Part shown: in pieces, positions 19,123-23,626 of the stretch
Numbering within the stretch: position 1 is the stretch's first letter
How the letters are laid out: the number at the start of each line of letters is the position of its first letter
NCBI RefSeq assembly: GCF_002952215.1
Contig: NZ_CP022600.1
Coordinates: 2,976,001-3,040,000, forward strand
DNA length: 64,000 bases
From: Porphyrobacter sp. HT-58-2
GTDB lineage: Bacteria; Pseudomonadota; Alphaproteobacteria; Sphingomonadales; Sphingomonadaceae
Direction: 5' to 3'
Made by a program: the position numbers and the translations under genes
The notes under the pieces: model-generated
Told to the model about the DNA's origin: nothing
Seen by the model: the letters and a program-made list of their open reading frames with translations, nothing else
The model's database searches: none

Positions 19123-20166
19123 TCAGTCCTGGCCTTCCATCAAGCCATGCTTACGGATGCAGTGACGCAGTTGGTCATAGGTCAGGCCGAGCGCTCGCGC
19201 CGTCTGACGCTGGTTCCAGCGATGCTTGCCTAGCGCGTGGGCGAGGATTGCGCGTTCGTGCGCATCGACTGCGGCGCGCAGGTCATCGACGTTGTCATAG
19301 CCTGTGGCCGCAGGCCCGGCTGGCACCGCACCGCTTGATGCGGCAACAGGTGCCTGCGGGGAGGCGCGTCGATGTTCGGGTGGACGCGGGCGCCATGGGC
19401 TGTCGAACGGATCGAACTGCACATGGGCGATCGCCATGTCCGGCGCGTCCCAGCGATAGACCGCGCGTTCAATCACATTGCGCAGCTCGCGCACATTGCC
19501 GGGCCAAAGGTGATCCTCCAACGCTTCCATCACGTGCGGGGCAAAGCCGGGCCAGCGCTCCCAGTCGAGCTCGGCTGCCATGCGCCGCCCGAAGTACTCC
19601 GCCAGCACGCCAATATCGCCCTCACGCACGCGGAGCGGAGGCAAGGTGATGACTTCGAAACTGAGCCGATCGAGCAGATCAGCGCGAAATTCCCCCGCGG
19701 CGGCGAGAGCAGGCAGATCGTCATTGGTCGCCGCAATGATGCGCACATCGACCCGGATCGGCCGCGAGGCGCCAATGCGCGTGACCTCGCCATACTCGAC
19801 CGCGCGCAGCAAGCGTTCCTGCGCGCCCATGGAAAGCGTGCCGAGTTCATCGAGGAACAGCGTTCCCCGGTCCGCCTCCTCGAACCGCCCCGCGCGCGCT
19901 CTGGTCGCACCGGTGAAAGCCCCTGCCTCATGGCCGAACAGCTCGGCCTCAATCAGCGTTTCGGGCAAAGCAGCGCAATTCATCGTTACCAGCGGCTCGT
20001 CCCACCGGCTCGACAAGCGGTGAAGACGTTCGGCGATCAGCTCCTTGCCGGTGCCGCGCTCGCCGATCACCAGCACCGGACGGTTCATCGCCGCAGCCCG
20101 ACTGGCGCGCTCGACCGCGTCCAGAAAGGCCCCTGATTGACCAATGAACTGCGTCTCAAGCTTCAT
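19123..20166 (-). CDS. pspF: PspF, sigma-54 activator of the phage-shock operon
   Basis: PspF is the enhancer-binding AAA+ protein that activates psp genes with sigma-54 and is held inactive by PspA. The 347-residue product begins directly with the AAA+ domain and has no receiver domain, as in PspF. Walker A is GERGTGKE (35-42), the sigma-54 contact loop GAFTGA is at 82-87, and Walker B is TLFLDELG. NVRELRNVIERAVYRW follows, then a Fis-type helix-turn-helix (NQRQTARALGLTYDQLRHCI). It is transcribed divergently from the psp genes; the start at 20166 (MKLETQFIGQS) matches the family N-terminus. Confidence 0.95.
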   Translation of the reverse strand: MKLETQFIGQSGAFLDAVERASRAAAMNRPVLVIGERGTGKELIAERLHRLSSRWDEPLVTMNCAALPETLIEAELFGHEAGAFTGATRARAGRFEEADRGTLFLDELGTLSMGAQERLLRAVEYGEVTRIGASRPIRVDVRIIAATNDDLPALAAAGEFRADLLDRLSFEVITLPPLRVREGDIGVLAEYFGRRMAAELDWERWPGFAPHVMEALEDHLWPGNVRELRNVIERAVYRWDAPDMAIAHVQFDPFDSPWRPRPPEHRRASPQAPVAASSGAVPAGPAATGYDNVDDLRAAVDAHERAILAHALGKHRWNQRQTARALGLTYDQLRHCIRKHGLMEGQD

Positions 20167-20266: not shown

Positions 20267-20282
20267 TGGCACGGCGGTTGCA
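20267..20282 (+). promoter_or_regulatory. Sigma-54 promoter of the psp operon
   Basis: TGGCAC (20267-20272), five bases and TTGCA (20278-20282) match the sigma-54 -24/-12 consensus, with GG at 20268-20269 and GC at 20280-20281. Transcription would start near 20293, about 30 bases before the first psp-operon gene. PspF sites would be expected between here and the pspF start at 20166; no clear dyad was picked out by eye. Confidence 0.9.
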
Positions 20283-20323: not shown

Positions 20324-20509
20324 ATGATCAACCGCAATGCAAGCCAAGCCAGCTTCTGGAGCTCCAAGCTCGGCCAGGCCGCGATGGCCAGCATCGCTGC
20401 CATGGTGATGATGATCGCGCTGACATCCCAGCTTCAGCCGGGGGCGGCCAGCGCCGCTCCGCTTGGTCACCCCGCTGCCGAAGCCGGCGCCTTGATCGAG
20501 GTTGCCTGA
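20324..20509 (+). CDS. Small membrane/secreted protein at the head of the psp operon
   Basis: A 61-residue product, not recognised as any named family. The start has TTGGGAGG six bases upstream. One hydrophobic segment (AAMASIAAMVMMIALTSQL, about residues 19-37) is followed by SASAAPLGHPAAEAGALIEVA, which looks like a signal-peptidase site or a membrane anchor with a short periplasmic tail. It is the first gene behind the sigma-54 promoter and ends one base before a GTG that opens the frame leading into pspA. It is probably a stress-induced accessory of the Psp response, judged by position only. Confidence 0.65.
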   Translation: MINRNASQASFWSSKLGQAAMASIAAMVMMIALTSQLQPGAASAAPLGHPAAEAGALIEVA

Positions 20510-20798
20510 CGTGAGCGATCACGAGAATCCCCTCGGGCCGGAGCGCCCCATGCAGGCTGTCCCTCCTGCAAACGCCGGTCACACCGCGGAACCCACCCGC
20601 GATGCAGGTACCAGCGAAGCTCCGGCCCACCCTTCCCGCCTGCTGTCGGCGGGGCGCATGTCGCGGCTCGATGAAGAAATCGAAGCCTTGCGTCGCAGCC
20701 CCACCCCGACGCAATCTCGGCGCGACAACGCCCAGCCGCAGGACGAGCGAGTCGCTCCCCTCGACCGGGTCAATTCGTTTCTCGATGGAGTAGCCTTC

Positions 20799-21485
20799 AT
20801 GGGCATTTTCAGCCGCACCCGCGACATCATTGCTGCCAATTTCAACGATATGCTCGACAAGGCGGATGATCCGACCAAGATGATCCGCATGATCATCCTC
20901 GAAATGGAGGAGACCCTGGTCGAAGTCCGCGCCAGCGCGGCGCGCACCATCGCCGACCAGAAGGAAATGCACCGCCACTGCGTGAAGCTTGATCGCCTCC
21001 AGGCCGACTGGGCTGAAAAGGCGCAGCTCGCGCTGTCGAAGGACCGCGAGGATCTCGCCCGTGCGGCGCTGGTCGAAAAGAAGAAGGCTGGCGACATGGC
21101 CGAGCAGCTCAAGGCTGAAATCGCGGTGCTCGACGATGCCCTGCGCGCCTACGAGGACGATATCGCCAAATTGCAGCACCGCCTGCGCGAGGCCCGCAGC
21201 CGCCAGACCGCAATTGCCGCGCGCCTCGAAAGCGCCGAAAACCGCGTGAAACTGCGCACCCTGATGAGCACCGAGCGCACCGACGAGGCGCTGGCGCGGT
21301 TCGACCAGCTCGAACGCCGCGTCGACTACGCCGAGGGCCGCGCCGACGCTTTGCAGATCGCAGAAGGCAAGACCCCGTCGCTCGCCGATGAAATTGCCGC
21401 TCTCGCCGGGTCGGACGCGATCGACGACGAACTGGCTGCCATGAAAAAGGCGCTTGGCAAATCCGGCGAAGACAAGGGGGAATAA
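20799..21485 (+). CDS. pspA: PspA, phage-shock protein A (ESCRT-III/IM30 superfamily)
   Basis: PspA is a peripheral inner-membrane protein that binds and inhibits PspF and oligomerises on damaged membranes. The 228-residue core starts MGIFSRTRDIIAANFNDMLDKADDP, the canonical PspA N-terminal amphipathic helix and helix 1. MIRMIILEMEETLVEVRAS and long coiled-coil helices follow to residue about 190. GGAG lies eight bases before the ATG at 20799. The frame is open for a further 96 codons upstream to a GTG at 20511, with GAGG before it and only one base after the previous gene; this extension contains MSRLDEEIEALRRSP and is otherwise polar. Both a 228- and a roughly 324-residue form are possible. 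The core identity is certain; the start is not. Confidence 0.93.
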   Translation: MGIFSRTRDIIAANFNDMLDKADDPTKMIRMIILEMEETLVEVRASAARTIADQKEMHRHCVKLDRLQADWAEKAQLALSKDREDLARAALVEKKKAGDMAEQLKAEIAVLDDALRAYEDDIAKLQHRLREARSRQTAIAARLESAENRVKLRTLMSTERTDEALARFDQLERRVDYAEGRADALQIAEGKTPSLADEIAALAGSDAIDDELAAMKKALGKSGEDKGE

Positions 21486-21488
21486 GCC

Positions 21489-21794
21489 ATGGATGGAGGA
21501 GAAGTCATTGCCGCCCTGGCGCTGTTCATTGGCGCACCCTGGGTGATCCTGCACTACATCACCAAGTGGAAGACAGCCCCAACCATCACATCGGATGACG
21601 AGGTGCTGCTTGAGGAGCTCTACAACCTGGCCCGCCGGCTCGACGAACGGATGGACACGGTGGAACGGCTGGTCGCTTCGGACGACCCCGCCTTCACCCC
21701 CGCCCGCCGCCTGATCGCCGATCAGGAAAAGGACAACCAGCAGCTTCGCGAGTTGGAAGCACTGATCGCCGAGAAGAAGGGAACGACGCGATGA
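21489..21794 (+). CDS. pspB: PspB, envelope stress response membrane protein
   Basis: PspB with PspC senses membrane stress and relieves PspA inhibition. The 101-residue product has an N-terminal membrane span (VIAALALFIGAPWVILHYI) followed by a coiled-coil tail: EELYNLARRLDERMDTVERLVASDDPAFTP, then QEKDNQQLRELEALIAEKKG. The ERLVASDDP stretch corresponds to the E. coli PspB ALE-IL-DAEHP region, but the tail is longer than the 74-residue E. coli protein. It begins three bases after pspA and overlaps pspC by four bases (ATGA). Confidence 0.9.
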   Translation: MDGGEVIAALALFIGAPWVILHYITKWKTAPTITSDDEVLLEELYNLARRLDERMDTVERLVASDDPAFTPARRLIADQEKDNQQLRELEALIAEKKGTTR

Positions 21795-22165
21795 ACAGCC
21801 CCCGGACCACGCTTTACCGCGACAAGCACAACGGCAAAATCATGGGTGTTTGTGCAGGCATCGCCGACTATACCGGAGTGAACGTGTTCTGGGTCCGCCT
21901 GGCGACCATCGCTCTCACATTCGGGCTCGGCTGGCCGATCATGGCCTATTTCATCGCCGGTTTCTTCCTCAACAAGAAGCCACCGCATCTCTACCGTGAC
22001 GAAAGCGAGCAGAAGTACTGGCAGTCCGTCCGGCAGAGCCCGAAGCGCACCGCCCGCGAAATCCGCGCGAGCTTCCGCGACATCGACCGCCGCCTCGCCG
22101 CTGTCGAGCACCATTATGTCAGCAGCAACCCGCGCCTGACCGCCGAGATCGAGCGGCTGCGCTGA
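21791..22165 (+). CDS. pspC: PspC, envelope stress response membrane protein
   Basis: A 124-residue PspC-domain protein: LYRDKHNGKIMGVCAGIADYTGVNVFWVRLA is the family signature, followed by a membrane region (ATIALTFGLGWPIMAYFIAGFFL) and a cytoplasmic or periplasmic helical tail, RASFRDIDRRLAAVEHHYVSSNPRLTAEIERLR. The tail resembles the E. coli PspC end (MERYVTSDTF). It overlaps pspB by four bases, and a 34-base gap with AAAGGGGG leads to the next small gene. Confidence 0.94.
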   Translation: MNSPRTTLYRDKHNGKIMGVCAGIADYTGVNVFWVRLATIALTFGLGWPIMAYFIAGFFLNKKPPHLYRDESEQKYWQSVRQSPKRTAREIRASFRDIDRRLAAVEHHYVSSNPRLTAEIERLR

Positions 22166-22199
22166 AACCCGCAATCACACTCAAAGGGGGACGCATATC

Positions 22200-22511
22200 A
22201 TGGAAGGCTACCTGGCCCTGATGATCCCGATCATCGCATTGATGATCCCGATCGTCGCAATCTGGACCAAGCACCAGCAGAAAATCGCTGAAATGCAGGT
22301 TGGTGCCACCGCCGAGCAGACCGCCGAAAAGGCTGCGCAGTACGCCAGCCACATTCAGCGGCTCGAAGACCGGGTGCAGGTGCTCGAACGCATCGTCACC
22401 GATCGCGGCTACGACATTGCAACGCAAATCGAGGCGCTGCGCGACACGCGCCGGGTTGATGAAGCAGGCGCGGGCGTCCCGCTCGGCCTAGGCAGCAAGG
22501 AGCGCGTGTGA
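22200..22511 (+). CDS. Small membrane coiled-coil protein, psp operon (Psp-associated 1)
   Basis: A 103-residue protein of no named family. The N-terminal segment YLALMIPIIALMIPIVAIW is a single membrane span. A helix then runs KHQQKIAEMQVGATAEQTAEKAAQY to RLEDRVQVLERIVTDRGYD, ending IEALRDTRR. The (V/L)ERIVTD-GY-xxxx-EIxALRD pattern recurs in the next genes and resembles the PspB and PspC tails. AAAGGGGG precedes the ATG by nine bases. It overlaps the next gene by a GTGA/TGATG junction. It is probably part of the same membrane stress complex; inference from operon position and shared motif. Confidence 0.8.
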   Translation: MEGYLALMIPIIALMIPIVAIWTKHQQKIAEMQVGATAEQTAEKAAQYASHIQRLEDRVQVLERIVTDRGYDIATQIEALRDTRRVDEAGAGVPLGLGSKERV

Positions 22512-22867
22512 TGCAGGCGTCCGATTTTCTCCCCTATCTGGGCTGGATCATCCTAGCCTGCACCGTGCTTGGCGGGATGGGTATCCTCGTCTCGTTCCAG
22601 ACCACCCGCATGAAGATTAAGAACGGCTATCCGCTCGAAGGGATGTGGGGCCAGTCGCTGAAGCCCGGCTCGGACAAGGAAACCGCGCACCGCGTGACCC
22701 TGCTGACCCAGGAAAACGCCGAACTGCGGGCAGAGCTGGGTTCGATGAAGGACAGGCTTGCCAATGTCGAACGGATCGTCACCGACGGCGGATATCACCT
22801 CGGCGCGGAAATCGACGCCCTGCGCGACCGCGCGCTGGCAGGCCTCAAGGACAAGGGCGAAGCATAA
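22511..22867 (+). CDS. Small membrane coiled-coil protein, psp operon (Psp-associated 2)
   Basis: A 118-residue protein. After LPYLGWIILACTVLGGMGILV (one membrane span) comes a basic stretch TTRMKIKNGYPLEGMWGQSLKPGSDKE. A helix then ends in MKDRLANVERIVTDGGYHL with EIDALRDRALAGLKDKGEA. The C-terminal motif is the same as in the preceding and following proteins. The MKIKNGYPLEG segment looks like that of small uncharacterised proteins in psp loci of alphaproteobacteria, but this was not checked. The start could also be the GTG at 22508. It overlaps its successor by one base (TAATG). Confidence 0.8.
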   Translation: MQASDFLPYLGWIILACTVLGGMGILVSFQTTRMKIKNGYPLEGMWGQSLKPGSDKETAHRVTLLTQENAELRAELGSMKDRLANVERIVTDGGYHLGAEIDALRDRALAGLKDKGEA

Positions 22868-23205
22868 TGAGCTTTTGGACCGCCGCAGTCATCATCTTTG
22901 CCATCTGGGGCCTGGTGCAGATCTACACCCGTCGCCATGACCGCGAACTGGGCGTGACCCGCGATGAGGATGGCAACCCGGTCTTCGCCCCGCGTGATGA
23001 CGGGCAGGCAGCTGCGGCGCTTGAAGCTTCGCGCAGGGAGATTGCCGAACTTGCCGAACGCGTGAAGGTGCTCGAACGCATCGCCACCGATGGCAACACC
23101 AGCGATGCGCGTGAACGGGCGCGGATCGCCGCTGAGATCGAGGCGCTGCGCGGGCTGCCGAACGCGCATAATTCCGACGAACGCCAGAAGGAGCAGAGCC
23201 AGTGA
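22867..23205 (+). CDS. Small membrane coiled-coil protein, psp operon (Psp-associated 3)
   Basis: A 112-residue protein with one N-terminal span (FWTAAVIIFAIWGLVQIY), a basic/acidic linker (TRRHDRELGVTRDEDGNPVF) and a helical tail with EIAELAERVKVLERIATDGN and RIAAEIEALRGLPNAHNS. The shared motif is interrupted by an insertion, SDARERA, between LERIATD and EIEALR. It overlaps the upstream gene by one base and the next by four bases (GTGA). No family was recognised beyond the repeated operon motif. Confidence 0.8.
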   Translation: MSFWTAAVIIFAIWGLVQIYTRRHDRELGVTRDEDGNPVFAPRDDGQAAAALEASRREIAELAERVKVLERIATDGNTSDARERARIAAEIEALRGLPNAHNSDERQKEQSQ

Positions 23206-23453
23206 CCACGCCCCTTTTCGACCCCTCCATTATCACCGCCGGTTCCTCCCTGATCGCGGTCATCGTCATCGCCGCTGCTCTGCTGCGCGCCTGGCAGGGA
23301 TGGCTCGATCTCAAGCGGCACGAGCTTGAGCGTGCGCCCGAGGACAAACGCCCGGATCACGGCCTCGCGCTGGGCACGGCGCGTATCGAGATGGCGGATC
23401 TCAAGGAACGCATCCGCAAGCTGGAAGCGATCGCCAGCGGGGTGGAGCTGTGA
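23202..23453 (+). CDS. Small membrane coiled-coil protein, psp operon (Psp-associated 4)
   Basis: An 83-residue protein beginning with GTG in a GTGA overlap. One membrane span (IITAGSSLIAVIVIAAALLRAW) is followed by DLKRHELERAPEDKRPDHG and MADLKERIRKLEAIASGVEL. The C-terminal motif is cut short: only the ERIRKLEAIAS part remains and the EIxALR half is absent. It overlaps the next gene by four bases. Confidence 0.75.
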   Translation: MTTPLFDPSIITAGSSLIAVIVIAAALLRAWQGWLDLKRHELERAPEDKRPDHGLALGTARIEMADLKERIRKLEAIASGVEL

Positions 23454-23626
23454 GCGGCGCGCGCGATACCGCCACGCAGGCGGGGATCGGCCTTGGCAGC
23501 GCCATCGCCGTCGCCATCAGCTGGAGCCTCAACCAGTCGATCATCTGGGCGATCATCCACGGCTTTTTCGGCTGGTTCTACGTGATCTACCATGCTCTCA
23601 CCCGGCCGGGCGGGCTCGGCGGATAA
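23450..23626 (+). CDS. Tiny two-span membrane protein ending the psp operon
   Basis: A 58-residue product from a GTG overlapping the previous stop (GTGA). Two hydrophobic helices are visible: AGIGLGSAIAVAISWSLN and SIIWAIIHGFFGWFYVIYHAL, joined by a short NQ turn, with TRPGGLGG at the end. It lacks the coiled-coil motif of its neighbours. Aromatic residues cluster in the second span. It is the last gene of the unbroken run from the sigma-54 promoter; sufE begins 43 bases later. It is too short for many gene callers but has tight overlap and good codon use. Confidence 0.7.
   Translation: MSGARDTATQAGIGLGSAIAVAISWSLNQSIIWAIIHGFFGWFYVIYHALTRPGGLGG

Follow-up and report, generated by a model that had tools for sequence, protein, structure and literature searches.

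A variable array of small membrane proteins with related C-terminal tails follows pspC in the psp operon of Sphingomonadaceae

The usual neighbors of PspA in proteobacteria are PspB, PspC, and PspD (PMC9239133). In Yersinia, PspA is reported to be bound in the on state by the C-terminal cytoplasmic domain of PspC, and PspF to be freed (PMC5596341). In E. coli, a putative leucine zipper of PspC is described as required for contact with PspA (PMC3068692). How PspB and PspC detect membrane damage and relay the signal to PspA has been a question for many years. Here we describe five small open reading frames (ORFs), named A to E, that lie 3′ of pspC in the phage-shock (psp) operon, which serves to repair a damaged inner membrane, of Porphyrobacter sp. 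HT-58-2. The analyzed DNA, referred to below as the window, is a 64-kb stretch of NZ_CP022600.1, and all positions follow its numbering. "Family" denotes the family of the window, Sphingomonadaceae in the broad sense. The direct precedent is one clause in Ravi et al. (2024, PMC11237479) that mentions PspB duplicates in psp operons; the available text of that paper names no family and reports neither a range of copy numbers nor tail exchange or loss of pspB, and the scale, variability, and pspB loss described here go beyond that text. The available text of a Qipengyuania genome paper records the presence of psp genes and no more, and a Zymomonas study reports that pspA, pspB, and pspC transcripts rise under ethanol.

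Homologous tails in the proteins encoded 3′ of pspC

A first-pass annotation of the window described four ORFs of 83–118 codons after pspABC, followed by a 58-codon ORF encoding two membrane spans, and this layout was borne out. The annotation had all five proteins sharing a C-terminal helix, which applies to A–D and not to E. Gene A (22200..22511, on the forward strand, as are all features given below except pspF) encodes a PspB-like protein of 103 residues with one span, a coiled coil, and a tail. Its tail module, delimited by the invariant columns of the A alignment, comprises residues 54–81 (22359..22442). The 118-residue product of gene B (22511..22867) has one span, a GYPLE-W linker, a coiled coil, and a tail, as judged from its family alignment and an AlphaFold model; profile comparison and the B alignment place the tail module at residues 78–105 (22742..22825). 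By the same two means, the module of the 112-residue C protein (22867..23205; one span, coiled coil, and tail in the family alignment) was placed at residues 60–95 (23044..23151). Gene D (23202..23453) encodes 83 residues with one span and a shortened tail, recognized through matches to the C profile and ending in EAIASGVEL. Gene E (23450..23626; 58 residues, two spans) was defined from its ORF and its relatives and is an accessory gene without a tail.

Tail profiles were built from fetched psp loci (described below) and compared with hhalign. Controls were 62 windows, each 40 columns wide, taken from PspA, PspF, and SufE, together with reversed tails. The array tails scored 81 (A–B), 72 (A–C), and 75 (B–C), against control-window maxima of 21.0, 16.3, and 14.2 and reversed-tail maxima of 11.3, 15.9, and 15.0 for A, B, and C, respectively. 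The tail of D scored 23.6 to C (D control maximum 16.4), 18.6 to A, and 16.0 to B. At E ≤ 0.01 the C-family profile matched 62/62 D proteins and 1/124 shuffled or reversed D proteins. The annotation had itself named tails no more similar than chance as a finding that would tell against it; the comparison was run, and the tails came out as more similar than chance. A coiled coil that arose by chance or convergence was rejected, for A, B, and C by the control windows and reversed tails, and for D by the shuffled and reversed sequences. In the whole source genome the C profile found C (E = 1e-27), A (1e-12), B (2e-7), and D (0.003), and its sole other match at E ≤ 1 had an E-value of 0.66. As judged by these profiles, the tails of A, B, and C are clearly homologous, D is a weaker member of the family, and E is none. 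When membership was taken as a tail-profile match at E ≤ 1e-3 together with a place 3′ of pspC, A, B, and C were members, D was a member via the C profile alone, and E fell outside. E was also considered as a fifth tail-family member and rejected: it carries no tail, and of its 44 relatives at least 13 lie far from the psp locus.

Among the classical proteins encoded at the locus, the segment most similar to the array tails is the C-terminal tail of PspC (22073..22162). The PspC tail of the family scored 27.5, 40.0, and 30.4 with A, B, and C (PspC control maximum 24.9), and that of other Sphingomonadales families 20.8, 29.1, and 22.2 (control maximum 24.5), where B alone passes. PspB of other Sphingomonadales families scored 28.8, 25.9, and 19.2, against its own control maximum of 15.6 and array-side maxima of 21.0 for A and 16.3 for B. 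The family's own PspB tail gave 13.6, 19.1, and 13.4, inside or barely above the controls (21.0, 16.3, and 15.0). The claim that PspB and PspC carry segments related to the array therefore stood for PspC of the family and PspB of other families, and was not supported for PspB of this clade. By profile score, the nearest classical tail for B and C is that of PspC and not that of PspB. In the same comparisons, the C-terminal quarter of PspA (alignment windows from columns 170 and 190) gave the top control score against A, B, C, and both PspC tails (14–24.5). The match is weak, but it prompts one to ask if the tails mimic a helix of PspA.

PspB and PspC were the models matched by most array members. 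Of 103 A proteins, 31 were aligned, and at E ≤ 0.1 these matched TIGR02976 (PspB) in 30/31 cases, TIGR02978 (PspC) in 26/31, and Pfam PspB in 25/31; the best of them reached 33 bits with the NCBIfam PspB model, under the cut-off of 51.7. The A protein of the window scored 33.0 bits with TIGR02976 (E = 5.5e-8) and 16.8 bits with PF06667 (cut-off 25.6), below both PspB cut-offs. It resembles PspB in its single predicted N-terminal span, its coiled coil, and its place in the psp operon, and it aligns over nearly the full model; it differs in being longer than the 75-position model and in coexisting with a full PspB. Among the 29 of 87 B proteins that were aligned, 12 matched PspC at E ≤ 0.01, and PspB was not among the matches listed. 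The aligned C proteins (31 of 73) matched PspB in 15/31 and PspC in 5/31 cases at E ≤ 0.1, and C of the window gave a weak match to TIGR02976 (12.9 bits) in its tail part only. The PspB models gave no match to B or D at E ≤ 1, and the PspC domain PF04024 gave none to A–E at the same threshold. In tail sequence the array proteins resemble the C-terminal domain of PspC at the end of TIGR02978, the closest classical segment tested for B (40) and C (30); they differ from PspC in lacking PF04024 and in showing one hydrophobic span. The annotation had read the run as repeated duplication of a PspB-type module. This reading is partly supported by the sequence comparisons: it is well supported for A, supported for B and C through their tails, more weakly supported for D, and does not extend to E. 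Most of the membrane proteins encoded in this operon score below the curated models by which they would be named.

PspB, A, B, C, and D all have no Lys or Arg on the N-terminal side of the span and 2–4 Lys or Arg in the 15 residues that follow it. This charge pattern fits a predicted topology with the N terminus outside and the C terminus inside for all five proteins, and for A–D hydropathy agrees with a single span. AlphaFold modeled A as one long helix (predicted local distance difference test score, pLDDT, 76) and B as a span helix (residues 7–38) followed by a helix of ∼60 residues (55–114; pLDDT 81). Sequence searches of solved structures with A gave nothing convincing (best E = 0.018), and fold searches with B gave no match at E ≤ 0.001.

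Array size, turnover, and loss of pspB

We sampled 197 Sphingomonadales genomes, 136 of them from the family, and found PspC in 192 and PspB above cut-off in 189. Eighty psp loci, picked to spread over genera, were fetched (67 from the family and 13 from other families). Tail genes lay 3′ of pspC in 67/67 family loci versus 1/13 other-family loci, where there was one such gene. The number of tail genes per family locus was one in 3 loci, two in 4, three in 20, four in 21, five in 12, six in 5, and seven in 2, a total of 259 genes, with D-type genes as a rule outside these counts. Two further family loci, those of genomes G045 (two tail genes) and G124 (three), were added after being noticed for a missing pspB or an odd PspC. 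Arrays of 1–7 genes were thus present in 69/69 family psp loci examined; absence of the genes from the psp loci of relatives, the other outcome that the annotation had set against its reading, was looked for and not seen. Within the genus of the window the number ranged from 2 to 7 (14 genomes, including the window). The last tail gene was of C type in 62/67 family loci, a separate D gene was present in 61/67 (three matches to other array members having been removed), and 128/192 internal array junctions were overlapping.

The A profile matched 4 family genomes and 3/285 others in a class-level sample, and 13 family genomes and 13/286 others in a phylum-level sample. Among the genomes listed for these samples, no family genome was without an A-profile match. 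The best 80 of at least 500 confirmed loci in a named collection, which name the relatives and set no bound on the range, came from Erythrobacter, Porphyrobacter, Qipengyuania, Altererythrobacter, and their kin, or from unclassified alphaproteobacterial or sphingomonadal bins.

The tail is better conserved than the part of the protein ahead of it. Protein identity within loci was 38% in the tails versus 21% in the preceding part (406 pairs; 254/263 proteins, the other 9 being dropped because the motif pattern was missing). In locus L057 DNA identity between the first two genes is 47% up to the tail and 87% thereafter, through the stop codon, a jump that marks tail copying. In L046, which has two tail genes, the first gene combines an A-type front with a tail whose protein sequence nearly equals the tail of a later paralog in L045, a related locus; in DNA this tail is 62–65% identical to donor-type tails versus 55–60% to its own type, which lends modest support. 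Front and tail classes were discordant in 9/185 unambiguously classed proteins, so that tail exchange is documented by single pairs (L057 and L046) and no general rate follows. The sensing part of the Psp response, a well-known stress response, appears modular and quick to change.

Eight of the order genomes had no PspB above cut-off. Five of these also had no PspC match, and the other three (G045, G124, and G164; 3/136 family genomes) encode pspA and pspC with 2–3 tail genes directly 3′ of pspC. In G045 (locus L231) PspC is 88 residues long and has lost its tail, and A-type and C-type genes still follow pspC. The best pspF match in G045 (62% identical) is on another contig with no psp genes beside it. 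A sigma-54-like site 5′ of its pspA fits a relaxed pattern without mismatch, a weak signal given 7 sites in that locus versus 2.9 expected at up to one mismatch. Since tail genes are kept in all three genomes, array members can persist after the loss of PspB and, once, of the PspC tail. Loci with 1–7 tail genes, some of them without pspB or the PspC tail, form a natural series for comparing sensing with docking and for asking whether PspB is dispensable.

Tail proteins were also found beyond the family. In two loci from a distant alphaproteobacterial family (L229 and L230), pspABC is followed by a protein of 78–80 residues with a PspC-type tail and one of 73 residues with a PspB-type tail; the two have similar spans. 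These loci resemble the array in having small one-span proteins with such tails right after pspC, but differ in having two genes only, and the product of the second scores 39.3 with Pfam PspB in L229 (cut-off 25.6). In other classes of the phylum, 11 genomes (13 loci: L216–L226, L232, and L233) encode proteins that share span, coiled coil, and tail with the array (A profile, E = 1e-13 to 4e-7); profiles of PspA, PspB, and PspC matched nothing in the ∼10 kb fetched. The tail looks like an older module whose amplification may have taken place within the family's psp operon. L221 has two adjacent tail genes. In L217, L224, and L232 the tail gene lies between genes named by eye as tRNA-deaminase-like and antiporter-like. 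L227 and L228, from alphaproteobacterial family f153, each encode two adjacent small one-span tail-like proteins with no psp match in the stretch, and the L227 pair lies 3′ of a dUTPase-like gene.

Possible roles of the array

We read the run as PspB-type membrane proteins arrayed in tandem. From the likeness of their tails to the PspC segment, these would add docking or pairing modules, tethered to the membrane, for PspA or PspB/PspC; we give this reading a probability of about one half. Duplication within the family's psp operon would have enlarged the array. Each member would expose an outer N terminus free of Lys and Arg, cross the membrane once with positive residues just inside, and end in a cytosolic tail borne on a coiled-coil stalk. 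Stress would free PspF, which with sigma-54 would transcribe the whole operon. The array proteins would then insert beside PspB and PspC and pair through their coiled coils, and the extra tails would hold PspA at the membrane, occupy PspB and PspC, or both. As spans and stalks vary and tails are conserved, inputs that differ at the membrane would converge on one docking output. A bolder and more tentative version has the PspB–PspC pair turned into a fast-evolving, tail-sharing receptor set that could replace PspB and the PspC tail, with a species-specific set of 1–7 receptors feeding PspA.

Several observations weigh against this docking reading. B, C, and D of the window fall below every PspB and PspC cut-off, the tail of D scored at most 7.2 with any PspB or PspC, and the PspB and PspC tails gave no direct match to each other (3.9–11.7). 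Because 11 genomes of other classes have tail proteins apart from recognized psp genes, the tail is not strictly tied to a psp operon. The loss of pspB was seen in three genomes of two genera. The long helices modeled by AlphaFold have modest confidence and do not discriminate between partners. From E. coli it is reported that a direct PspB–PspA interaction was not seen, and two topologies of PspC are discussed (PMC3068692).

The array tails resemble the family's own PspC tail as well as PspB of sister families, and the array members could also be negative-feedback decoys, which once induced would occupy PspB and the PspC tail and shut the response off rather than chiefly hold PspA. The shared operon with pspABC suits such a role, and the title of a referenced paper states that cytoplasmic interactions between PspB and PspC silence the Yersinia response. 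However, G045, without PspB and the PspC tail, keeps two array genes, which there would be decoys without targets, and we regard this explanation as unlikely. Similarly doubtful is the proposal that the proteins are effectors independent of PspA, acting, like PspB and PspC on mislocalized secretins, directly on damaged membrane or misinserted multimers, with copy number tracking the envelope load of each species. PspB and PspC are reported to suffice against secretin toxicity in Yersinia (PMC5596341), tail proteins occur apart from psp genes in other classes, and copy number differs within one genus, all as this proposal would have it; it leaves unexplained why the tail, the partner-binding segment of PspC, is the better conserved part.

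The tails might also lack a common origin, short coiled coils C-terminal to a span having converged on similar heptads; coiled coils yield background matches, and both D and PspB of this clade scored little above controls. Convergence is nonetheless very improbable, given A–B–C scores of 72–81 versus control maxima of 15–21, conserved residues past the coiled coil, and the genome-wide specificity of the profile. A docking or shared-complex role for the tails, which the annotation had likewise proposed, is what their likeness to PspC suggests.

Operon layout and flanking genes

The psp genes ahead of the array are pspA (20799..21485; TIGR02977, 277 bits, cut-off 243), pspB (21489..21794; TIGR02976, 78 bits, cut-off 51.7), and pspC (21791..22165; TIGR02978, 133 bits, cut-off 104). 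The annotation had all genes overlapping by 1–4 bases. Overlaps of 1 base (A/B and B/C) or 4 bases (pspB/pspC, C/D, and D/E) were indeed found, but pspA and pspB are separated by 3 bp and pspC and A by 34 bp. The run is preceded by a single candidate sigma-54 promoter, as annotated: the site TGGCAC-N5-TTGCA at 20267..20282 is the sole exact match within the 64 kb. An exact motif lies within 900 bp 5′ of the assigned pspA start in 41/81 loci, the window counted. The sigma-54 activator gene pspF, named by eye, is divergent (19123..20166, reverse strand). Its relatives in G124 and G164 are 72–73% identical, and a pspF profile matched in 80/80 fetched loci. At the sequence level, gene order and the PspF/sigma-54 site place the array in the operon in the same way as PspB, which would imply co-transcription.

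The ratios of nonsynonymous to synonymous substitution rates (dN/dS) against three near relatives were 0.10–0.16 for A, 0.10–0.20 for B, 0.19–0.35 for C, 0.23–0.35 for D, and 0.11–0.28 for E, with 0.17–0.27 for PspB and 0.08–0.21 for PspC. At 0.10–0.35, all five ORFs (A–E) are constrained genes under purifying selection.

The position at which the annotation began the operon, 20324, is the start of a separate ORF that it left undescribed, the first gene 3′ of the promoter. This 61-codon ORF (20324..20509) encodes one span and is conserved in relatives; at E ≤ 1 neither Pfam nor NCBIfam models matched its product. Relatives of 45–61 residues with one span occupy the interval between the sigma-54 region and pspA in 37/67 family loci and 0/13 others, often with the motif M(Y/F)-x-R-x-F-F-x-x-K-L-G-Q-A-A and with ELA, EIA, or a similar sequence at the end. 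At the other end of the run, E lies 3′ of D in 14/67 family loci. Its relatives occur in 44/197 order genomes, in at least 13 of which they are on another contig or more than 10 kb from pspC; E is thus linked to D in some genera and located elsewhere in others. In the window, E is followed on its 3′ side by a gene named by eye as SufE-like.

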